NCBI GenBank assembly: GCA_023150845.1 | Contig: JAKLKD010000037.1 | Location: forward strand, 1-36,348 | Direction: 5' to 3' | Length of the DNA stretch: 36,348 nucleotides | Source of the DNA: Myxococcota bacterium | GTDB lineage: Bacteria; Myxococcota_A; UBA796; CAJQPC01 | Shown here: positions 7,479-35,827 of the stretch, piece after piece | How the letters are laid out: each line of letters opens with the position of its first letter | Numbering within the stretch: position 1 is the stretch's first letter | The notes under the pieces: model-generated | What the model was told of the DNA's origin: nothing | The model's database searches: none | The model's input: only the letters and a program-made list of their open reading frames with translations | Program-made: the position numbers and the translations under genes

Positions 7479-8584
7479 TCCGGCGCCCGCAGCGTGAAGT
7501 CCACGCCGCCGACGCGGTCGCCGCTCACCAAGAGGCTCAATCGGGCCGGGCCGGGGCGCAGGGTGCGGGTGGTGACCTCACGGAGCTTGTGGTTGAGGCG
7601 CAGCGCCAAGGGCTCGCCGGGGGTGATCGTCGCGGTGAGGCCCTTAAACACCTTCTCTGAAGGGCGCTCAGGCCGGGCTCCCGGCGTCTGGAGCGCATAG
7701 TCGATCACCAAGGGCTGGGAGACGTCGCCCTCGAGGGTGGCGCTCAGCGTGAGGGTGTCGCCGATCCAGGCCTCGGTGAGGTTCAGGCTCAGCGCCGTGA
7801 GCCGCACCTTGGGCGCCTCAAAGCCGAGCAGCGCCAGGGCCTCGGGCTGGCCTTGTTTGACGAGCATCCGCAGCGCGTGGCGCACGACCCAGAGGCGGTC
7901 CTCAGAGGCGCCGTGAAGCCAGGTCCGGGCGACGGCCAGGGCGCGCTCGGGGTGGTCCTTCGTGACGTCGTTGAGGTGGTTGGCGACGCTCTTCCGGACG
8001 TAGAGCGCCGGGTCGTCCTTGAGCCGCTCCAAGACGGCGAGGCCGGGGCCGGGGTCGGTGATCAAGGCCGGGACGCGGCCGCCCCAGGGCAGGCGGGGCC
8101 GGGCGCCTTCAGAGGCGAGGCGGCGCTGGTGAACGTCGTCGGAGACCGCCCAGCGGTGCATCGCCGCCCAGGCCAGCTCGGGGTGGTGGTGGAGGTAAGG
8201 CCGCACGGCGAACTCGGCGGAGAAACGCCGGGTCAGCTCCCCCAAGGCCGACAAGGACCGCGCCGGGTCGCCGAGGCCGTGGACCTCGACGACGTGGAGC
8301 AGAGGCCAGATCGCCACATGCTGGCCCACGGCCTCCTCCCCGTCGATGGCCGGGGGCGCGGCGGCGAGCAGGCGGTCCACGGCGGCGGGCCACTCCGCGG
8401 GCAAGGCGCGGCGAAGGGCCTCGGCGATGTGGGCCACCCGGCCCTTGAGCTCCAAGGCGGCGAGGCCGTCGGTGGCCTCGGCGACGAAGCGGGTGAGCGG
8501 GAACGACGGATCGACCTGCCGCTGCCGCTCGCCGAGGGCGGCGACGACGGACGGGTTGAACCACTCTTTGAACGGCTCGGCCAT
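7475..8584 (-). CDS. alkC: AlkC-type DNA glycosylase with Ig-like domain
   Basis: Encodes 369 residues. The ATG at 8584 is chosen because GAGGAG lies about 9 bases upstream; the frame stays open to 8731 but that stretch is Arg/Pro-rich and not protein-like. AlkC removes alkylated bases such as 3-methyladenine. The HEAT-like repeat domain covers about residues 1-255, with family signatures RLASEGARPRLPWG (155-168) and YVRKSVANHLND (195-206). Residues 260-369 are beta-rich and match the Ig-like domain described for the AlkC-alpha branch, which helps grip DNA. The stop codon overlaps that of convergent pilT. An 18-bp operator-like palindrome sits 138 bases upstream of the start (8722-8739) and might control it. 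Confidence 0.88.
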   Translation of the reverse strand: MAEPFKEWFNPSVVAALGERQRQVDPSFPLTRFVAEATDGLAALELKGRVAHIAEALRRALPAEWPAAVDRLLAAAPPAIDGEEAVGQHVAIWPLLHVVEVHGLGDPARSLSALGELTRRFSAEFAVRPYLHHHPELAWAAMHRWAVSDDVHQRRLASEGARPRLPWGGRVPALITDPGPGLAVLERLKDDPALYVRKSVANHLNDVTKDHPERALAVARTWLHGASEDRLWVVRHALRMLVKQGQPEALALLGFEAPKVRLTALSLNLTEAWIGDTLTLSATLEGDVSQPLVIDYALQTPGARPERPSEKVFKGLTATITPGEPLALRLNHKLREVTTRTLRPGPARLSLLVSGDRVGGVDFTLRAPD

Positions 8585-8980
8585 GGGGGGCTCCTCGGGT
8601 GGGGAGCATAACGGGCGGGGGCGACGCCTGGCGACGGGCCGACGAGGTGCAGGCTCCAGAGGCGCCCAGGACACCGCCCGGGAGGCCTGCTCGGGAGGCG
8701 CTCGCTCCGACATGAAGTCTTCACTGAACATGTTCAGCGAGGCGATGAGGCCGTCCCAAACGCGCTGCTCGGGGGGCTGCGGGCGATCGGGCGAAGGGCT
8801 TGAGCTGAAGGTGCGGGGAGTGGTCTTGGCGTCCTCCTGGTGGTGAGCGCGCGGTGTTTATCTCGCCCAGCGCCCAGAAACATCCCAGACACAATCCCGC
8901 AAGACCTCAGCAACCCTCCGGCCGCAGCTTGATGGGGCGAGGCGCGGCCACCAACCCCCGCGCCCACACCGGAGCCGCTC
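8585..8980. other. Intergenic region between alkC and the stress operon
   Basis: Nearly 400 bases between two divergently transcribed units, with no convincing gene. Open frames through it are Arg/Pro/Ser-rich products of GC-rich DNA. The one distinct element is the palindrome at 8722-8739. A GGAG ribosome binding site for the next gene is at 8971-8974. I see no clear -35/-10 pair. Confidence 0.55.
8722..8739. promoter_or_regulatory. 18-bp operator-like palindrome (site 1)
   Basis: Positions 8722-8739 read CACTGAACATGTTCAGCG: two 8-bp arms around AT, perfect for the inner seven bases of each arm. The AAC-N2-GTT core is like those bound by TetR-family repressors such as the KstR group. It closely resembles the double site at 11536-11566 on the other side of the sensory operon, which argues that one regulator reads all of them. 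The regulator gene is not in the window. Confidence 0.55.
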
Positions 8981-9541
8981 ATGTCCACCGAGACCCCAGA
9001 GACCCCCTCCTCTTCGACCCCCTCCGCCGACGGCGGGCGCTGCGCGAAGGGCGCCAAGGGCGCGCGCCGGGGCCGCCGACTGTTCCGCCTGTTCTTGTTG
9101 TTCTCCGCCGTGGGCGCCGGGGCGTTCTTCTTGCCCCGGGCCTTCGCGGGCGGCGGCTGGGGCGGGGAGCACGGCTGCCACCAGAGCGCCCAGAGCGCTG
9201 AAGACCTGCGGGAGCGCGCGGAGTGGGGCGCCTCGTGGTTCTACGACGAGGTCGACGCCACCGACACCCAGCGCGCCCAGCTCGACGCCCTGCTCGACGA
9301 GGCCGCGCCCGTGGCCTTCGGGTTCAAGCAGGAGTCCAAGGCGCTCAAGGGCCAGCTCGCCGACGCGCTCAGCGCCCCCCAGGTGGAGCGCGCGGCCTTG
9401 GAGGAGGTCCGCCTCGACGGCCTGGACCTCGCCGATCGCGCCACGGCCAAGGGCTTCGACTGGCTGGCGCGGGCGGCGACGATCCTCACCCCCGCCCAGC
9501 GAGACGGCCTGCGCGGGGAGTGGGACGCGCGCCATCGTTGA
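8981..9541 (+). CDS. CpxP/Spy-like (LTxxQ) membrane-anchored protein
   Basis: Encodes 186 residues, first gene of a three-gene sensory operon, with GGAG just upstream of the ATG. A Ser/Thr/Pro-rich and then basic N-terminus (to about residue 33) leads into one hydrophobic segment (about 34-56) that acts as signal or anchor. The exported part is all helical. Near its end is LTPAQRDGL, matching the LTxxQ motif of the CpxP/Spy/CnrX-like family that senses or chaperones proteins and binds metals in the periplasm. A His/Cys-containing segment (GGEHGCHQ, about residues 61-68) follows the membrane segment and could bind metal. Gene order with an OmpR-type regulator and kinase mirrors the cpx and related metal/envelope stress systems, so it probably tunes the kinase. 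Confidence 0.72.
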   Translation: MSTETPETPSSSTPSADGGRCAKGAKGARRGRRLFRLFLLFSAVGAGAFFLPRAFAGGGWGGEHGCHQSAQSAEDLRERAEWGASWFYDEVDATDTQRAQLDALLDEAAPVAFGFKQESKALKGQLADALSAPQVERAALEEVRLDGLDLADRATAKGFDWLARAATILTPAQRDGLRGEWDARHR

Positions 9542-9557
9542 CGCGGAGGCCAGGACC

Positions 9558-10286
9558 ATGCAGGCTCTCGGGCTGATGCCGAACCCCCGCCTGCTCATCG
9601 TCGACGACGATCAGCGCCTCGCCGCGCTGCTCGTCGCGACGCTCACCCCACGCGGCTTCGTCGTCGAGCACCGCGCCGACGCCGCCACGGGCCTGCCCGC
9701 CGCCCTGCACGGCGGCTATGACGCCCTGCTCCTCGACCTCACCCTCCCCGACGGCGACGGTCTCTCGATCTGCCGCGCTGTGCGGGCCGTCTCCGACCTC
9801 CCGATCCTCATGCTCACCGCCCGTGGGGACGAGCTGGACCGCATCATCGGCCTTGAGCTCGGCGCCGATGATTACCTGCCCAAGCCCTTTAACCCCCGAG
9901 AGTTAGAGGCCCGGGTGCGGGCGATCCTGCGCCGTCGTCTGCCCGCCGCCGCGCCGCCGCCGCCAGCCCCGAGCCCGACGGTGTGGCGCTTCGGCCGCAT
10001 CACCATCGACCTCGACGCCCGGGAGCTGCGTGTGGACGGCGCGCCCCGCCGCCTCACGAGCCACCAGCTCGACCTCATCATCGCCCTCGCGCGGAAGCCG
10101 GGCCGGGTGCTCAGCCGGGATCAGCTCTTGGAGGAGCTCGGCGTCGAGGAGGACAGCTTCGACCGCAGCGTCGACGTGACGATCTCGCGGGTGCGTGCCG
10201 CCATCGAGGACAACCCCAAGGAGCCCCGCTGGATCCGCACCATCCGCGGCGTCGGCTACAGCTTCACGCCCACCGATGACCCATGA
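9558..10286 (+). CDS. OmpR/PhoB-family response regulator
   Basis: Encodes 242 residues. Residues 10-125 form the receiver domain: the acidic triad D16-D17-D18, the phosphoacceptor D60 in LLLDLTLPDGDG, the switch Thr in LTARG, and the conserved Lys in YLPKPF. A Pro/Ala-rich linker leads to a winged helix-turn-helix (about 142-238) with the typical end RTIRGVGYSF. A GGAGG site precedes the ATG. It overlaps the kinase gene by 4 bases (ATGA at 10283-10286), so the pair is translated in a coupled way. It presumably controls its own operon and envelope stress genes; direct target sites are not identified. Confidence 0.95.
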   Translation: MQALGLMPNPRLLIVDDDQRLAALLVATLTPRGFVVEHRADAATGLPAALHGGYDALLLDLTLPDGDGLSICRAVRAVSDLPILMLTARGDELDRIIGLELGADDYLPKPFNPRELEARVRAILRRRLPAAAPPPPAPSPTVWRFGRITIDLDARELRVDGAPRRLTSHQLDLIIALARKPGRVLSRDQLLEELGVEEDSFDRSVDVTISRVRAAIEDNPKEPRWIRTIRGVGYSFTPTDDP

Positions 10287-28373: not shown

Positions 28374-29543
28374 ATGAACCAGCCCCAGCCGACCCCGCCC
28401 CTCGCGCTCTTGGGGGCCGCGGCGGCCCTCGCCCCCTTCACGGGGAGCATGCCCATCCCGACGCTCACCTCGGTCGGCGAGGAGCTGAGCGCGCGGCCTG
28501 AAGAGGCCACCCGGGTCATCAGCGTCTTCTTCTTGGCCTTCGCGACCTCGATGGTGCCCGCGGGGGCGCTCTCGGACCGCGTGGGGCGGCGCCCCGTGGC
28601 CATCGCGGGCCTCACGCTGCTCGCGGTCTCCAGCGTCGCCGCCGCCCTCGCGCCGACCTTAGAGACCCTGCTGGTCGCCCGCTTCTTTCAGGGCCTCGGC
28701 GCGGCGGCGCCGATGAACCTCACCCGCGCCGTCATCCGGGACGGGGCCTCGGGAGACGAGGCGACCCGGGCGATGTCCGTCGTCTCCGTGTTCCAGTCGG
28801 CGGGGCCGGCCATCGCGCCGATCGCCGGGGCGCTCCTCGGCTGGCGTGTCGGCTTCGGCGCGCTGTCCGTCGCGGCGCTGCTCTTGGTCGGGCTCTCGAC
28901 CTGGCGCTGGAACGAGACCCTGCCGCCGGGGCCCAAGACCTCGCCCTTCAGCCAGCTCCACCACCTCGGCGGGGGGCCCTTCATCCCCTTCGGCGTCGCG
29001 CTCACGGCCTTGTCGTCGATCTGGTTCAGCTTCGTGGCCATCGCCCCGGCGGCCTTCGTCGGCTCAGGTTGGCTCACCCAGCAGGGCCTGGGGCTGATGC
29101 TCACCGGGGTCGCCTTCAGCCTCGTCGGCGGCGCCACGGCCGCGCAGGTGAGCCTCAAGCGGGGCCTGAGCAGCGACGGGGTGCTGCGGGTGGGCGCGGC
29201 GATCGTGCTCCTCAGCGGCGTCGGGCTCGCGGGGATGAGCCTCGCGGCGCCTGGGCTGCTCCCGCCCTGGATCGCCCTCTTCTTCGCCTACGCCTTTGGC
29301 AACGGCATGATGACGCCGCCTGCGGTGATGCGGGCCTTAACCGTGCCGTCCTCGGCGGCGGGGGTGGCGTCCGCGCTCATCGGGGCCGTGCAGCTCCTCG
29401 GCGGCGCCTTGGCGGCGGAGCTCGTGCCCCGGCTGACGGACAGCCTGCTCACGAGCTTCGCCTGGGTCACCCTGGTCTGCCTCGGCGTGATGGTGGGCGC
29501 GCTCTCGTGGGGCTCGGCGCGGCTCAAGACCGCCGCCGCTTAG
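28374..29543 (+). CDS. MFS transporter, Bcr/CflA-like drug exporter
   Basis: Encodes 389 residues with about twelve hydrophobic segments. The loop 2-3 signature appears as GALSDRVGRRPV (about residues 63-74), and the later segment ARFFQGLGAAAPMNLTRAVIRD is typical of the Bcr/CflA drug:H+ antiporter branch. It should export a small hydrophobic compound using the proton gradient. GGAG lies just upstream of the ATG. It ends tail to tail with the ThDP operon, overlapping its last codon by 4 bases, so it is not co-transcribed with it. Confidence 0.87.
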   Translation: MNQPQPTPPLALLGAAAALAPFTGSMPIPTLTSVGEELSARPEEATRVISVFFLAFATSMVPAGALSDRVGRRPVAIAGLTLLAVSSVAAALAPTLETLLVARFFQGLGAAAPMNLTRAVIRDGASGDEATRAMSVVSVFQSAGPAIAPIAGALLGWRVGFGALSVAALLLVGLSTWRWNETLPPGPKTSPFSQLHHLGGGPFIPFGVALTALSSIWFSFVAIAPAAFVGSGWLTQQGLGLMLTGVAFSLVGGATAAQVSLKRGLSSDGVLRVGAAIVLLSGVGLAGMSLAAPGLLPPWIALFFAYAFGNGMMTPPAVMRALTVPSSAAGVASALIGAVQLLGGALAAELVPRLTDSLLTSFAWVTLVCLGVMVGALSWGSARLKTAAA

Positions 29544-32020
29544 CCGTCCCGAGCGCAGCGCACGTCGAGGAGCACCTGGCGCCCCTCGGCGCGGGCCAAG
29601 GTCAGGGCCTCGGCGAGGGCCGCGGGCACCTCATCGGGGCGCTCCACCCGGCGGCCGACGGCCCCGCAGGCCTGGGCGATGAGGCGGATGTCGAGGTCGT
29701 GGCTGAAGTCGCAGAGCTCAAACCGGCCCGTGCGCGCCGCCCAGCCCTGGGGGTGGGAGCCGCGGGTGCTGCGCTTGATGGTGCTCCAGGCCTGGTCGTT
29801 GAAGACGATCATCACGAGGCCCAGGCCCTCCTGGGCGGCGACGGCGTGGGCGGAGAGCGGGGTGTTGAAGAGGTAGGAGCCGTCGCCGACGGCCACGACG
29901 ACGTCGCGGTCCGGCGCCGCCATGGCCCCGCCCAAGGCCGCGCCCAAGGACCAGCCCAGGCCGCTGGCGACGCTGTTCTCAAACCAGCTCGCCGGGGTGC
30001 GCCGGGGCACGAGGGTCGGGTCGAGGGGGTACTCGTTGAAGATCACGTGGTCGTCGTCGATGGCCTGGCCGACGCACCAGGAGAGGTAGCGTTTGCTGAT
30101 GGTCGGGAGCGCCGCGTCGGCGGCGGCGGCGGCGCGGGCGGAGCTGAACACCTGCTGGTGGCGCGCGGCGAGGCGGGCGCCCTCGGCGGCGAGGCGGGCG
30201 GCCGGGAGGTCGAGGCCTTGGGCCAAGGCGCGTAGGGTCTGGGCGGGGTCCCCGGCCAAGGCGAGGTCCACGGGGAAGCCGCGCAGGGGCAGGTCGGCGA
30301 AGAGCGGGTCGACGCCGATGGAGATCACCCGGGGCGCCCGGGGGAGCTTGGCGTGGGCCGGGATCCAGGGGACGGGGCACTCCACGGCGAGGATGAGGTC
30401 GGCCTCTCCCACCTCGGGCATGGGGTCGAAGCCGAGGTGGTGCTCATCTTCGGTGGGGAAGTTGAAGAAGTTCCGCTTGCCGTGCTCGATGACCCCGGCC
30501 CCGGCGGCGCGGGCGAGGCGCACCAAGGCCTCGGGCCCGCCGGGGTGGCGGCCGAGGTCGGCGGTGACAATCAAGACCCGCCGCGCCCCACGCACCCAGG
30601 CCCGGGCGGCGTCGAGGGCCCCGGCGTCGGGCAGCCGAGCGCGCTCGGGGCGCTGGCGGGCCTCGGCGGGCACGGCGCTCGCCGCCACGGGCTCACAGAG
30701 GGGCTCCTTGGGCAGAGTGAGGTAGACCGGCCCCCGGGGCTCGCTCTCGGTGATCGCCAGGGCTCGGTCGAGCACGGTGTCGAGCGCGTGGGGGGAGCGC
30801 AGCTCGTAGTCCCACTTCGTGAACTCCCGGAAGCTCGCGGCCTGATCGAAGCTCTCTTGGCCCCACTGGACGAAGTTGCTGCGCACGCCGTCTTTGCCCG
30901 ACTCGTAGAGCGGGGTGCGACCGGCCAAGGCCAGCATCGGCGCCCGGGCCCGGCGGGCGTTGATGAGCCCGAGGCCCATGTTCGCCGTGCCGACGTTCAC
31001 ATGCGCCATCACGGCCTGGGCCCGGCCCGTGAGCAAGGCGTAGCCGTGGGCCATGGCCACCGCCGTGTTCTCGTGGGGCGCGGGCACCACCCGCAGGGGC
31101 AAGGCGCCGTCGTGCTCGTGGGCGTAGTGGGCCAAGGCGTCGATGATCGGCGTGAAGTCCGTGCCGGAGTTCGTGAACAGGGCCTCGACACCCCGGAGCT
31201 GGAGCAGGTCGAGGAGCCGCCGGGCGCAGCTCCCCTCGCCGAGCTGGACCTCGGCCAGGGGGTCGGGGCGGGCCCGGTCGTCGTCCGGGGCCCGGGCGTC
31301 GCGCAGGTGCCCGACGAGGGCCCGGGTGAAGGCCTCGGGCTGGTCGAGGTTCGAGAAGTGTGAGGCGCCGGGCAGGTTCACCAGGCGCGCCGTGGGCACG
31401 GCCTGGGCGATGGCCGTGAGCAGGGGGTCCGTCGGCGTCACCGGGTCGAGGGGGCCGCCGATGAGCAGGGTCGGCACGTCGACCTGGGCGAGCAGAGGGC
31501 GGTAGTCCACCGCGAACATGACCTCCCAGCAGCGGAGGTAGGCCGCGGGCTCCTTGGCGCTCTCGCCGTCGATGAGGGCCTGGACCACGGCGGGGTCCGT
31601 CGTCGGCGCGAAGAGGCCCGGCACGCTCCAGGCGGAGAAGCCCGGCAGGCCCCGGGCGGCGAGCTCCCCGGTCACCCAGGCCACGCGCCCGGCGCCGTCG
31701 GCCATGTACGCCCAGGAGTTCGCCAAGGTGAGGGAGCGCACCCGGCCCGGGGCCTGGGCGTAGACCTCCAGGGCCACCACGCCGCCCATGGACAGGCCGA
31801 CGAGGTGGGCCCGGGTGTAGCCCTCCTCGTCCATCGCCGCGAGGACGAGGCGCGCCATGGCCGCCACGGAGACCTCCTCGACGGGGAGGCTGAGGTCCAC
31901 CGCGCGAACGGCGTAGCGGCCCGCCAAGGCGTCACGCTGGGGCGCCCACTGGTCGGGCACCCCGCCGACGGCGTGGAGGAACAGCACCAGCTCACGGGGG
32001 CGAGGAGAGGACGAGGGCAT
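29540..32020 (-). CDS. Fusion of alpha/beta hydrolase and thiamine-diphosphate enzyme
   Basis: Encodes 826 residues as one continuous frame. Residues about 8-240 are an enol-lactonase-like alpha/beta hydrolase: S77 in GLSMGG (75-80), D192 and H221 form the triad. Residues about 255-826 are an acetolactate-synthase/benzoylformate-decarboxylase-type ThDP enzyme: the cofactor-activating glutamate is E317 in APHENTA, ThDP/Mg binding is GDGSYLF (712-718) with ND at 741-742, and NVGTANMGLGLINARRA belongs to the Pyr domain. It should act on a 2-oxo acid. Glyoxylate carboligase lacks this Glu, so that identity is unlikely. The gene is last in an operon with a barbiturase-like and a ureidoglycolate-lyase-like enzyme (13-base gap), which suggests that it finishes the breakdown of a ureido compound. 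Confidence 0.87.
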   Translation of the reverse strand: MPSSSPRPRELVLFLHAVGGVPDQWAPQRDALAGRYAVRAVDLSLPVEEVSVAAMARLVLAAMDEEGYTRAHLVGLSMGGVVALEVYAQAPGRVRSLTLANSWAYMADGAGRVAWVTGELAARGLPGFSAWSVPGLFAPTTDPAVVQALIDGESAKEPAAYLRCWEVMFAVDYRPLLAQVDVPTLLIGGPLDPVTPTDPLLTAIAQAVPTARLVNLPGASHFSNLDQPEAFTRALVGHLRDARAPDDDRARPDPLAEVQLGEGSCARRLLDLLQLRGVEALFTNSGTDFTPIIDALAHYAHEHDGALPLRVVPAPHENTAVAMAHGYALLTGRAQAVMAHVNVGTANMGLGLINARRARAPMLALAGRTPLYESGKDGVRSNFVQWGQESFDQAASFREFTKWDYELRSPHALDTVLDRALAITESEPRGPVYLTLPKEPLCEPVAASAVPAEARQRPERARLPDAGALDAARAWVRGARRVLIVTADLGRHPGGPEALVRLARAAGAGVIEHGKRNFFNFPTEDEHHLGFDPMPEVGEADLILAVECPVPWIPAHAKLPRAPRVISIGVDPLFADLPLRGFPVDLALAGDPAQTLRALAQGLDLPAARLAAEGARLAARHQQVFSSARAAAAADAALPTISKRYLSWCVGQAIDDDHVIFNEYPLDPTLVPRRTPASWFENSVASGLGWSLGAALGGAMAAPDRDVVVAVGDGSYLFNTPLSAHAVAAQEGLGLVMIVFNDQAWSTIKRSTRGSHPQGWAARTGRFELCDFSHDLDIRLIAQACGAVGRRVERPDEVPAALAEALTLARAEGRQVLLDVRCARDG

Positions 32021-32033
32021 GTGGGGCTCCAGC

Positions 32034-33164
32034 TCAGCGGGCGCGGACGATCATCGCCAAGGGCCCGCCACCTTGGGGGCCGTGGTGCTCAGCGCGGGTG
32101 GACACATAGACGCGGGTGTCGCCTAAGGTGGCGGCGAGCACCGACGACAGCACGCAGCGGGAGTAGCGGGTGTCGGAGATGTCGTCGTCGCTGAGCATGG
32201 TGTGGCGTCGGCCCCGCACCGTGCCCCGGGCGTCGGCCTCGCTCTTCGCAAAGACCCCGACGATGCGGTTGACCTCGGCGGGGTCCGGCGGCGCCCCGAG
32301 CTGCAAGCCTAAGCCCCGGGCGACGGCGTGGATCCCGGCCACGTCGAGGAGGTCGCTCAGCACGCCGTGGCCGATCTGCAGCTCGCCGTCGGCGTAGGCG
32401 CTGTTGGCGAAGGCGAGGAGCTCCGTGCGGCGGAGGCCCGGCTTGGCGCTGCAGGAGGCGATGGCCGAGTAGTGGCGGTAGTCGCTGAGCACGACCTCGT
32501 CGCTGAGGTCCTCGCGGCGCACCTCACCCAAGGCCAAGGCCACGCCCAGGGCGCTCGCCCCGCGGGAGTAGGCCATGTCACAGCGGAAGGGCGCGCCCCG
32601 GCGGGCGGCGGCCTCGGCCTCGGCGTGGGTGAAGCTGGGGATGGCGCCCTTCATCTGGATGAGGTGCACGTCGCTGGGGTCATCGACGCCCAGCTCCTGC
32701 ACCAAAGCTTGAACGGCCCGGGCCGTCTCCTCGATCTGGGGCATCCGGCCGATCTCGCCGGGCTCAAACTCCCGGGTGTAGCCAACGGCGACGGTGAGGC
32801 GCTTCTCGGCCCGGCGATCGGCGGGGCTCGGTGCCTGGGGCAAGGCGCCCTCCCGCACAAACACGATCATGTGGGGGGTGACGACCCCCTCGGTGCCGCC
32901 GGAGAAGGAGAACACCACACGGTCCTGCACCGCCTCGGGGGGCACGCCGAGGCGCGCGCCGAGCAGGCGCTCCAGGGCCCCCATCGCGAGGTCCCGGGTG
33001 AAGTCGTTCCGCCCGCCGTTGCCTTCGGTCTTGCCGAGCACACAGACGACGTCCTCCGCCCGCACCTCCCCCCGGTCGAGGAGCCCCTTGAGGCCGGACA
33101 CGTCGCCGGGGCCCCGGGTCTCAAAGTTGAACGCCCGGACGCGGAGCCCCGTCGCCCCCGACAT
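32034..33164 (-). CDS. Ring-opening amidohydrolase (barbiturase / cyanuric acid hydrolase family)
   Basis: Encodes 376 residues, the normal size of the AtzD/TrzD/barbiturase family, three homologous domains that hydrolyse an amide bond in a cyclic ureide. Signatures are GKTEGNGGRNDFTR (44-57), SGGTEGVVTPH (88-98), SRGASALGVALALGE (200-214) and HHGPQGGGP near the C-terminus (360-368). By analogy with AtzD, three Ser-Lys pairs can be proposed: K45 with S88, K172 with S237 or S239, and K307 with S356. The family splits between barbiturase and cyanuric acid hydrolase plus unknown members; I cannot say which this is. It starts directly after the stop of the upstream gene, so the two are coupled. 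The neighbouring lyase favours a carbon-containing ureide over cyanuric acid. Confidence 0.9.
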   Translation of the reverse strand: MSGATGLRVRAFNFETRGPGDVSGLKGLLDRGEVRAEDVVCVLGKTEGNGGRNDFTRDLAMGALERLLGARLGVPPEAVQDRVVFSFSGGTEGVVTPHMIVFVREGALPQAPSPADRRAEKRLTVAVGYTREFEPGEIGRMPQIEETARAVQALVQELGVDDPSDVHLIQMKGAIPSFTHAEAEAAARRGAPFRCDMAYSRGASALGVALALGEVRREDLSDEVVLSDYRHYSAIASCSAKPGLRRTELLAFANSAYADGELQIGHGVLSDLLDVAGIHAVARGLGLQLGAPPDPAEVNRIVGVFAKSEADARGTVRGRRHTMLSDDDISDTRYSRCVLSSVLAATLGDTRVYVSTRAEHHGPQGGGPLAMIVRAR

Positions 33165-33779
33165 CTACGCCGCCGCCGGGGCGCTGAGCCCGCGCAGGCT
33201 GACGTGAAGCTGGACCCCCGTGCGCTCGAGGATGTTGATCTTGAAGACGTCGCCGGTGTTCATCTCGCTGGCGCTGCCTTGGGCAGCCAGGGCCGCGACG
33301 ACCTCCTCGCTGTTCGCCGTGAGCACGGTCACCGGGCGGTCCAGCGCCATCGGGAAGTCGTGCCAGGTGCCCTCGTGGATCATGATGCCCGTGCCCGGGG
33401 GCAGGATGAAGGCCCGCACAGACTCCAGCTCCGGCAGCTCGGCGTCGACGTTGGGCTTGCCGAGCACCATACAGAGGGGCGCGTCGCCGAGGCCCACGAA
33501 GAGCTGGGTCATGCGCAGGTGGCGCTCCAGCCAGGTGATCTCGCCGGGCCGGGGGTGGATGCGGGCGGTGCGGATGACGGCGCGCTCGTGGTAACGGAAC
33601 GGCAGGTTGAAGCCCTCCTCCACGGCCCCCTTGTAGAACGGGATCGACAGCCCCGCCTTGGGCACGTCGGTGCCGATGAACTCCCCGTACTCCGCGGTGT
33701 TCTCCCGGGTGGCGTACACCACGGGGATCTCCAGGGCGCGGTGGACAGGGACGAACGCGCTCTGCGTGCTGTCGGTCAT
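33165..33779 (-). CDS. Ureidoglycolate-lyase-like protein
   Basis: Encodes 204 residues, first gene of the operon. It resembles the AllA/ureidoglycolate lyase family (PF04115), cupin-like enzymes that split ureidoglycolate into glyoxylate and urea. Supporting segments are ERHLRMTQLFVGLGD (85-99), the AFILPPGTG strand (about 123-131) and GTWHDFPMALDRPV (137-150), with H140 in the expected active-site position. No other allantoin genes are near, so the true substrate is probably the ureido acid produced by the barbiturase-like enzyme downstream. It has a GAGAGG-like ribosome binding site. The fold call is firmer than the exact reaction. Confidence 0.78.
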   Translation of the reverse strand: MTDSTQSAFVPVHRALEIPVVYATRENTAEYGEFIGTDVPKAGLSIPFYKGAVEEGFNLPFRYHERAVIRTARIHPRPGEITWLERHLRMTQLFVGLGDAPLCMVLGKPNVDAELPELESVRAFILPPGTGIMIHEGTWHDFPMALDRPVTVLTANSEEVVAALAAQGSASEMNTGDVFKINILERTGVQLHVSLRGLSAPAAA

Positions 33780-33896: not shown

Positions 33897-35756
33897 TCAC
33901 TCCACGAACCAGGGGCTCGACCAGGCCGCGCCGCCCTCGGCGTCGATGACCCGCACATAGAGCCGCTCCCCGGCCTTGAGCCCGGTCAGCCGGGTCTCGA
34001 CCAGGGCCATGCCCTCGGGGCGCTCGCCGAGCGGGCTCACCACGCCGTCCCGCACGAGCTCCACCTTCACCCCCGCCGCCCCGGAGACCACCCGCACGGC
34101 GAGGTCGTGGTCCCCCGGCGGCACGACCTGGCCCATGCCCGCGCCGCCCAAGGCCACCCGCAGGGCGATCCGGGCGCCGTTCGTGGCGAAGGTGCGCCGC
34201 TCCAGGATGGCCGCGTAGACCTCGTCCGCCGTGGGCGGCCCGTCGATGGCCCCGTCGAGCCAGATCCCCGTGAGGCCGCCTTGGCCCGCGGCGAGCTGGG
34301 CGAGGCCCGGGTGCCCGTCGTGGCCGTCGCTGCCCCCCAAGAAGCCCAGGCGGTAGCCCTTCGCCAAGGCGTCGAGCACGCTGTGCCCCGGGGTGTAGCC
34401 CTGGATTCGCCCCGGCGTGTCGGGGCCCTCGCTGGAGCCGTGCACGCTCACGAGCTCTACCGAGGGCTCCAGGCGGGGGTCCGGGGTGAAGCTCCAGTCC
34501 GTGACGACGGGGCCGCCCGCGGTGTGGTGCGGGACGGTGATCGCCCGCTCACCGCTCAGGGACGCCCAGAGCTCCGTCGGCGTGTCCGTGCGGGGGTCGA
34601 GGCAGGAGCGCAGCGCCCCCGGCGCGCCGAAGAACACGACGTGGCGGTGCCCATACCGCCACGAGGTCCACTCAAAGCCCGCCAAGGCGAGCACCCCCTC
34701 GGCGGCGGCCACGGCGTCGAGCACCCGCTGGTAGAGCGCTGGGTGCTGGTCCAGCGCGCGCAGCCCCCAGTGGTCGTGGTCGGTGATGGCGACGACGTCG
34801 AGCCCGGCGACGTCCCGGGCGTAACGGATCACCGCCGCGGGGTCCCCGGTTCCGTCGGAGAGCCCGGTGTGCACCTGGAGGTCGGCCCAGACGAGGCGCG
34901 GCGCCCCTGGCCGCACCACGATGGGCTCCCCGGTGGCGACGGCGCGGCCCTCCACCACGGCCTGCACGGCGTAGACGCCCTCGGCCCGCGGGGTGAACGG
35001 CACCCGCAGCGCCCCGGACTCGGGCAAGGTGACCGTCGTGGGGAGCCCAAGGGCGGGGTCGGCGCGCAGGCCGACGAGGAGCGGGCCCCGGGCGGGGTTG
35101 CCCGAGACGTCCACCAAGGCGAGGCGGAGGGACGCGGCCTCCCCCGGGCGGGCCGTCGATGGGGTGACCACCCGCATCCCGGCGGGGTCGCCGCCGACCA
35201 CCCGTAGGGGCAGCTCCTCGTCCAAGAGCCGCCGCACCCCATCGCCGTCGCCGTCGATGGCGACCCGTAGGGCGTCGGTCTCATCGGCGTAGCGGTCCAC
35301 CTGGGCCTGGGCGCTGCCCGCGCCGTAATGCACCCGGAGCAGCTCCCCGGCGCGCAGGGCGCGGCTGGGGTGGATGAACAAGAGCGTCGGCTCCGGGTGC
35401 GACAGGCGCAGCTCGACGCCCTCGGGGCCGGTGACCGTCGTGTAGCCCGGGGCGTCCGGGGCGGTGACCTGGGGCGGGCTCCAGCCCCAGAACGGCGGGG
35501 CCTGAAACGCGATGAAGCCGTCCTTGGCCACACCCAGCGCGCCGATCTCGACGGTGAACACCCACGCGCCGCGGCCCCCGGCGACGACCTCCTCGGGCCC
35601 GGAGATCAGGCGCAGGCGCCCCGCGCCGTCGGAGGGGTGACGAGGCGCCGCGAGGTCGGCCAGGAGCGTGTCGTGGAGGTCCCTCGGGGGCGCCTCGGCG
35701 TCCTGGGGCGGTGGCGCCGAGGCGCAGGCGAGGAGGAGCGGCAGGGCGGCGGTCAT
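33897..35756 (-). CDS. PHP-domain lipoprotein
   Basis: Encodes 619 residues from the ATG at 35756, chosen because the lipobox LLAC (C11) follows directly; the open frame continues to 35813 but adds a poor signal. After a Pro/Glu linker come about 250 residues of beta-sandwich-like modules. The PHP phosphoesterase domain follows: DLQVHTGLSDGTG (292-304), TDHDHWG (325-331), FEWTSW (361-366), a VPHHTAG motif and GGSDGHDGHPG, all with metal-binding His and Asp residues as in DUF3604-type proteins. It likely hydrolyses a phosphate ester outside the cytoplasm. A beta domain closes the protein. It is divergent from the ferredoxin gene with 71 bases between. Confidence 0.82.
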   Translation of the reverse strand: MTAALPLLLACASAPPPQDAEAPPRDLHDTLLADLAAPRHPSDGAGRLRLISGPEEVVAGGRGAWVFTVEIGALGVAKDGFIAFQAPPFWGWSPPQVTAPDAPGYTTVTGPEGVELRLSHPEPTLLFIHPSRALRAGELLRVHYGAGSAQAQVDRYADETDALRVAIDGDGDGVRRLLDEELPLRVVGGDPAGMRVVTPSTARPGEAASLRLALVDVSGNPARGPLLVGLRADPALGLPTTVTLPESGALRVPFTPRAEGVYAVQAVVEGRAVATGEPIVVRPGAPRLVWADLQVHTGLSDGTGDPAAVIRYARDVAGLDVVAITDHDHWGLRALDQHPALYQRVLDAVAAAEGVLALAGFEWTSWRYGHRHVVFFGAPGALRSCLDPRTDTPTELWASLSGERAITVPHHTAGGPVVTDWSFTPDPRLEPSVELVSVHGSSEGPDTPGRIQGYTPGHSVLDALAKGYRLGFLGGSDGHDGHPGLAQLAAGQGGLTGIWLDGAIDGPPTADEVYAAILERRTFATNGARIALRVALGGAGMGQVVPPGDHDLAVRVVSGAAGVKVELVRDGVVSPLGERPEGMALVETRLTGLKAGERLYVRVIDAEGGAAWSSPWFVE

Positions 35757-35827
35757 GATGATTGAGCGTAGCCCGCACAAAGCGCGGCGCCCAAGGGATA
35801 TGCTACAGGCCACGCCCAGGAGAGACG

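Follow-up and report, generated by a model that had tools for sequence, protein, structure and literature searches.

A conserved gene cassette combining a Toblerone-fold cyclic amide hydrolase, a ureidoglycolate-lyase-like protein and a ThDP enzyme: a possible route for cyclic ureide or imide catabolism

Introduction

What brings together, on one strand of a myxococcotal contig, the genes for a cyclic amide hydrolase, a cupin protein resembling ureidoglycolate lyase and an alpha/beta-hydrolase fused to a ThDP enzyme? The genes lie in a stretch of 36,348 nucleotides (the window), which constitutes contig C444 of a 7.1-Mb assembly. The Toblerone-fold family to which the first of these enzymes belongs is rare, and most of what is known of it concerns man-made triazines; a clade tied to a ureidoglycolate-lyase-like (UGL-like) partner, in organisms without a known role in herbicide breakdown, would suggest that the fold has a natural substrate. 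A first-pass annotation, made from the sequence alone, had read the three genes as a ureide catabolic operon in which a ring is opened, urea is released and the resulting 2-oxo acid is passed to the ThDP enzyme. Our literature search found no paper describing the cassette, and none in which barbiturase or cyanuric acid hydrolase (CAH) is named together with thiamine or ureidoglycolate lyase.

Gene Organization

All three genes lie on the minus strand and begin with ATG. The first in the operon (33165..33779) encodes the 204-residue UGL-like cupin protein and is followed, at a gap of 0 bp, by the gene for the 376-residue Toblerone-fold cyclic amide hydrolase, hereafter the ring opener (32034..33164); a further 13 bp (32021..32033) separate this from the gene for the 826-residue ABH-ThDP fusion (29540..32020). 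Residues 1-245 of the fusion (31286..32020) form the alpha/beta-hydrolase (ABH) domain and residues 256-826 (29540..31255) the ThDP enzyme domain. The proteins share 92.6-93.1% amino acid identity with those of a sister genome, a metagenome-assembled genome (MAG) labelled Myxococcota (locus L007), and dN/dS across the three genes is 0.14-0.18 (0.14 for the UGL-like gene). Such values at about 93% identity indicate that all three ORFs are real genes under purifying selection and that long antisense ORFs are not the signal. The UGL-like frame of the sister locus (L007 6243-6857) contains a TAG codon some 20 residues before the end of the window protein, which could reflect an error in the assembly or a slightly truncated protein.

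Directly upstream of the cassette is a gene for a CehA/McbA-type metallohydrolase (33897-35813, minus strand; NF038032, 84.8 bits against a cut-off of 80); ORF clustering found no family common to this position in the other loci carrying the set. On the opposite side, a Bcr/CflA-like MFS efflux gene (28374-29543, plus strand) converges on the fusion gene and overlaps its end by 4 bp, and a homologue at the matching position was seen in just one other set locus, that of the sister genome. The same clustering revealed no recurring transporter or regulator beside the set.

The Ring Opener Forms a Separate Clade

The ring opener matches the AtzD/TrzD family (PF09663) with 411.5 bits against a cut-off of 25, and its AF2 model (pTM 0.86) aligns with 5t13 in Foldseek at a TM of 0.86. 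Its best PDB matches are CAHs, it is homologous to barbiturase 5hwe, and it passes the NCBIfam CAH cut-off (376.3 bits against 360), as does its counterpart from Acidithiobacillus caldus (372), a member of the same altered clade. When 12 UGL-linked ring openers were placed in a tree with AtzD, TrzD, Moorella CAH, an enterobacterial plasmid protein and barbiturase, they formed a clade of their own with 100/100 support and a stem of 1.49 changes per site. All three Ser/Lys/Arg sets of CAH are kept in the clade, and every member has Ser239 and Lys172, the equivalents of the Ser226/Lys156 dyad, which we propose as the catalytic pair for ring opening. Three loops are altered in 12/12 members, with a KGAI insertion after the glutamine-x-lysine motif (Lys172), SAK-P-(G/A) at Ser239 and S-T-R at Ser355, in place of the SGG/SAG loops of CAHs; Lys241 and Arg357, beside catalytic serines, are equally invariant. 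In the alignment with Azorhizobium CAH, Ser239 corresponds to Ser226 and Gly243 to Glu230, a residue described as absolutely conserved in the family (PMC4051656), and this position is Gly or Ala throughout the clade. Arg201 is kept at the domain-B arginine position, where barbiturase 5hwe has Asn.

Because the clade is separate, its loops are altered and the reported-invariant Glu is missing, cyanuric acid hydrolase is not a safe name for the ring opener, and NCBIfam cut-off-based annotation probably mislabels the clade in this way. In the structures from Moorella, contact with the substrate is made by the residue that follows Ser347 (PMC6557486); together with the new cationic side chains in the loops, this suggests a substituted, probably anionic, ring as the substrate. 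We infer its acidity from two side chains, one of which, Arg357, sits in the STR loop that the AF2 model renders at low confidence (residues 356-363). Ordinary-clade ring openers were also seen on two enterobacterial plasmids (L035 7716-17795 and L036 5981-11073) with fdrA, DUF1116, DUF2877 and carbamate kinase genes, a gene set resembling the allFGH oxamic transcarbamylase set (PMC11326118); one of the two lies near a mercury resistance operon.

The UGL-Like Protein and the ABH-ThDP Fusion

The UGL-like protein scores 46.2 bits against the Pfam ureidoglycolate lyase family (PF04115, cut-off 23) and conserves the ERH..Q and WHDFP motifs. It lies far below the NCBIfam ureidoglycolate lyase equivalog cut-offs (at best 34.8 against 212 bits), and for this reason its reaction may differ from that of ureidoglycolate lyase. 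A short relative found at two loci (L068 and L071; 25-31% identical) does not in our view prove a ureidoglycolate intermediate. On a Novosphingobium plasmid, a remote relative (L038 8001-8591; 34-35%) adjoins genes for a luciferase-family monooxygenase, a methyltransferase and an FAD oxidase, in a stretch with no ring opener.

The ABH domain of the fusion matches Abhydrolase_1 (PF00561) with 57.8 bits, its triad S77/D192/H221 being invariant in eight homologues. The ThDP domain reaches 568.6 bits against NF006203/PRK08327, passing the cut-off of 456, and Glu317 of its PHENT motif is likewise invariant in eight homologues. Both Glu317 and His340, which resembles His70 of benzoylformate decarboxylase (BFD), align with their counterparts in BFD-type 4q9d, and the top Foldseek matches of the domain are BFD-type (pTM of the whole-fusion model, 0.59). 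In sequence and modelled fold, the ThDP domain is thus nearest to benzoylformate decarboxylases. The ThDP-activating Glu is replaced in glyoxylate carboligase.

Relatives of the ThDP domain on two alphaproteobacterial plasmids lie near 2-hydroxyacid oxidase, aldehyde dehydrogenase (ALDH) and ketopantoate-reductase-like (KPR) genes, and one on a third plasmid lies near an XDH-type enzyme, an alpha/beta hydrolase and an amidohydrolase. Taken with the BFD-type character of the domain, these plasmid neighbours favour a reading in which the ThDP enzyme decarboxylates a 2-oxo acid and KPR handles that acid and its 2-hydroxy form. The neighbours of PRK08327 genes in genome contigs are mixed and too varied to name a substrate.

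The family assignments of the first-pass annotation are largely upheld by these comparisons. The PF04115 match confirms its ureidoglycolate-lyase-like protein, and the Abhydrolase_1 and PRK08327 scores its hydrolase-ThDP fusion; its argument that E317 speaks against glyoxylate carboligase gains from the retention of the Glu and from the kinship with benzoylformate decarboxylases. Its placement of the ring opener in a barbiturase/cyanuric-acid-hydrolase family holds at the level of PF09663 and is too specific as a name, given the separate clade and altered active-site loops.

Conservation of the Cassette

Searching genome contigs with the fusion protein gave 23 relatives, and either the full set or its ring-opener/ThDP part is present in ten of these (L007-L016). 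The UGL-like, ring-opener and (ABH-)ThDP genes are contiguous in eight loci (L007, L008, L010-L014 and L016), always in this order wherever the contig allows; in L015 the set is split by a contig end only and continues in L088. The locus L009 has no UGL-like gene, and a genome with the same ring opener and fusion (G342) carries its UGL-like gene elsewhere (L042). In L013 the ThDP enzyme following the ring opener (8001-9632) is missing the ABH domain; the fusion is therefore not universal and is a variable part of the set. Labels of the set loci include Myxococcota, Obscuribacterales/Melainabacteria, Blastocatellia, an unclassified bacterium and a ‘Proteobacteria’ MAG, such MAG names being possibly unreliable. 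A small HMA-type protein with a CxxC metal-binding motif is encoded downstream of the cassette in two MAGs (L014 10567-11019 and L016 8910-9485).

The UGL-like protein and the ring opener are the stable core of the set. In a sample of 379 genomes of Myxococcota, five encode a full-length ring opener (G000, G069, G265, G327 and G342) and close UGL-like genes (E < 1e-90) are present in the identical five, a co-occurrence with a Fisher p of 9e-11 that ignores relatedness and includes two genomes of the same genus. A short ring-opener match was all that was found in one genome of the 379 (G200), and a remote UGL relative (E ~1e-32) occurs in two further ones. G265 has the UGL-like and ring-opener genes without an adjoining ABH-ThDP gene and represents a third arrangement of the core pair. 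There (L030 6278-9116), GGT-like and PanE-like genes are divergent from the pair, with a LysR regulator and a YdcZ-type exporter nearby; both were rejected as members of the set, the former as an ordinary GGT-like protein and the latter for its 21% identity to the set KPR.

A fourth gene accompanies the set in some genomes. KPR-like genes (TIGR00745) of one subfamily lie upstream of the UGL-like gene in L010, L011, L016 and L088, downstream of the fusion in L008 and, in G342, beside the UGL-like gene at L042, apart from the ring-opener/fusion pair. A profile of this subfamily found close members in six cassette genomes (those of L008, L009/G342, L010, L011, L015 and L016), distant matches only in L012, L013 and G265, and no match in G000, G069 and G392; with no or distant matches only, the set-specific KPR is absent from the window genome, the sister and the L012-L014 genomes. 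That the linkage is repeated in differing arrangements, the split genome G342 included, speaks for KPR as a member of the pathway, even though the gene is missing from the window genome.

The cassette is thus genuine and widespread, and consists of known enzyme families plus one clearly separate clade. The ORF list agrees with the first-pass annotation on three minus-strand ORFs separated by 0 and 13 bp, and its operon claim is sustained by contiguous same-strand genes whose set is conserved elsewhere. The search for co-occurrence that it had called for shows the set recurring across several phyla, so that the null of no conservation beyond the source genome fails. Its three genes are real and linked; the KPR of six other genomes was missed, as were the standing of the UGL-like/ring-opener pair as the stable core and the separate clade of the ring openers.

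Other Gene Contexts of the Core Pair

On A. caldus megaplasmids, a UGL-like/ring-opener pair (57-61% and 52% identical) shares an operon with genes for a three-subunit Mo-hydroxylase, XdhC, DUF4089, an AtzE-type amidase, HpxZ and a GGT-like protein. Among the PDB matches of this last protein is 5hft, which we take to be the Klebsiella oxamate amidohydrolase HpxW. The operon, which includes LysR, was located at L033 4845-16147 (A. caldus SM-1 megaplasmid) and also in L034, and is a candidate for a complete pathway in a culturable species. No partner gene of the operon has a homologue in the window or in other ABH-ThDP loci; a match was seen for GGT alone, in G265 (L030).

UGL-like genes are present in six more genomes of the cyanobacterial phylum to which G389 belongs, one of them as a partial match. 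Two (G469 and G594) carry a PuuE-like gene followed by the UGL-like gene, XDH FAD and FeS/Mo genes, XdhC and a MocA-type gene, and in two others (G486 and G414) the UGL-like gene adjoins a PuuE-like gene. PuuE-like/UGL-like/XDH operons of this phylum lie at L067 7813-14984 and L068 7869-14599, in genomes with no HIU hydrolase or OHCU decarboxylase. At 165 bits, the PuuE-like protein falls well short of the 425 bits set as the PuuE cut-off. Of 17 genomes with close UGL-like genes, 12 carry the ring opener and lack the PuuE-like protein, and in five it is the other way round (p 1.6e-4, a value that ignores relatedness). Read most simply, this mutual exclusion means that one lyase is served, in the same or a similar role, by either of two unrelated cyclic amide hydrolases, and the exchange is a direct handle for finding the substrate. 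Both contexts support ureide catabolism, and they strengthen the logic of ring opening followed by urea release put forward in the first-pass annotation.

Proposed Pathway and Alternatives

We tentatively favour, at somewhat short of an even chance, a conserved catabolic cassette for a cyclic ureide or imide that is probably acidic. The Toblerone-fold enzyme would open the ring hydrolytically through the Ser239/Lys172 pair, and the UGL-like cupin enzyme would eliminate urea from the ring-opened 2-ureido acid to give a 2-oxo acid. This would then be decarboxylated by the BFD-type ThDP domain, the fused serine hydrolase acting on an ester-, thioester- or C-C-type product or precursor, and in genomes with KPR, the KPR-like enzyme would interconvert 2-oxo and 2-hydroxy acids. 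We infer these four reactions, their order and an acidic substrate; what we observe is the genes and their linkage, the active-site residues, the clade, and a PuuE-like amidohydrolase taking the place of the ring opener in cyanobacteria. A narrower and more doubtful version is an undescribed pathway for a carboxylated cyclic ureide such as orotate, oxonate, alloxanate or the 5-hydroxyhydantoins, with a PuuE-exchangeable opener of the Toblerone clade, a UGL-like urea-releasing lyase and an ABH-ThDP decarboxylase. Among the papers listed for oxonate or allantoxanate degradation, most were oxonate-model and drug papers, and none dealt with bacterial ring opening.

The steps of the cassette run parallel to the allantoin-glyoxylate branch of E. 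coli, and it could be that allantoin (purine) catabolism is carried out here by non-orthologous enzymes, the ring opener standing in for allantoinase, the UGL-like protein taking allantoate and/or ureidoglycolate as its substrate, and the ThDP enzyme and KPR replacing glyoxylate carboligase and tartronate semialdehyde reductase. KPR shares a fold superfamily with the latter, the cyanobacterial UGL-like genes co-occur with XDH genes and a protein of the PuuE (allantoinase) family, and this protein and the ring opener exclude one another. We nevertheless consider this unlikely, as we do the classical urate/allantoin route, since HIU hydrolase is missing in 16/17 UGL-like genomes and OHCU decarboxylase in 19/20 searched (G000 included), the PuuE-like protein scores so low, and the Glu lost in glyoxylate carboligase is kept. 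The sole genome with both enzymes (G391) also has adjoining AllB and allantoicase genes, in a cluster at L087 7519-10766, in addition to the cassette, which is on a different contig. An oxidative pyrimidine route seems less probable again. In it a Mo-hydroxylase would yield barbiturate or a 5-substituted form, the ring opener a ureidomalonate-type acid, and the UGL-like protein would be the missing ureidomalonase that frees urea. The XDH-type genes adjoining the UGL-like gene in A. caldus and two cyanobacteria fit such a route, as does homology to barbiturase 5hwe; however, the A. caldus Mo-hydroxylase has no counterpart at the ABH-ThDP loci, the ring opener keeps Arg where barbiturase has Asn, and malonate would leave the ThDP enzyme and KPR no obvious role.

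The null that the first-pass annotation set for itself, an ordinary CAH beside functionally unrelated genes, draws on the NCBIfam score and the CAH structures among the best PDB matches. We regard it as improbable in view of the long-stemmed clade with its altered loops, the Gly or Ala in place of the reported-invariant Glu, the lack of AtzE or HpxZ homologues in ABH-ThDP loci and the strict co-occurrence with the UGL-like gene. Just as improbable is an intracellular metabolite repair or biosynthetic cassette acting on a cyclic imide and a 2-oxo acid, without ureide catabolism. ThDP enzymes, KPR and serine hydrolases also serve in anabolic chemistry, and neither transporters nor regulators recur next to the set, but in A. 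caldus the core has Mo-hydroxylase, AtzE and HpxZ genes as neighbours, and in cyanobacteria the UGL-like gene is linked to PuuE-like and XDH genes.

Comparison with Known Systems

Each component of the proposed catabolic cassette departs in some respect from its nearest described relatives. With AtzD, TrzD and barbiturase the ring opener has the Toblerone fold in common, and it keeps the CAH Ser-Lys-Arg sets, but the KGAI, SAK-P-G and S-T-R loops, the lack of a Glu230 equivalent and other gene neighbours set it apart. The UGL-like protein shares with AllA an above-cut-off Pfam match and the LERH...Q and H...WH core; it is some 20-30 residues longer, has WHDFP in place of WHH and falls below the curated AllA cut-offs. 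The ThDP domain resembles the benzoylformate decarboxylase type and PRK08327 in its aligned Glu317 and His340, its fold matches and its profile score, whereas the N-terminal ABH fusion was not seen in 13 more distant PRK08327 loci (L017-L029). In the order of its chemistry, namely ring opening, loss of urea or amine, a ThDP step and a reductase, the cassette is like the E. coli allantoin-glyoxylate branch and the Klebsiella HpxWXYZ oxalurate module, and in A. caldus the core stands with AtzE, HpxZ and GGT-like genes. The enzymes of the window are, however, not orthologous to those of either system, and HIU hydrolase and OHCU decarboxylase are nearly always absent.
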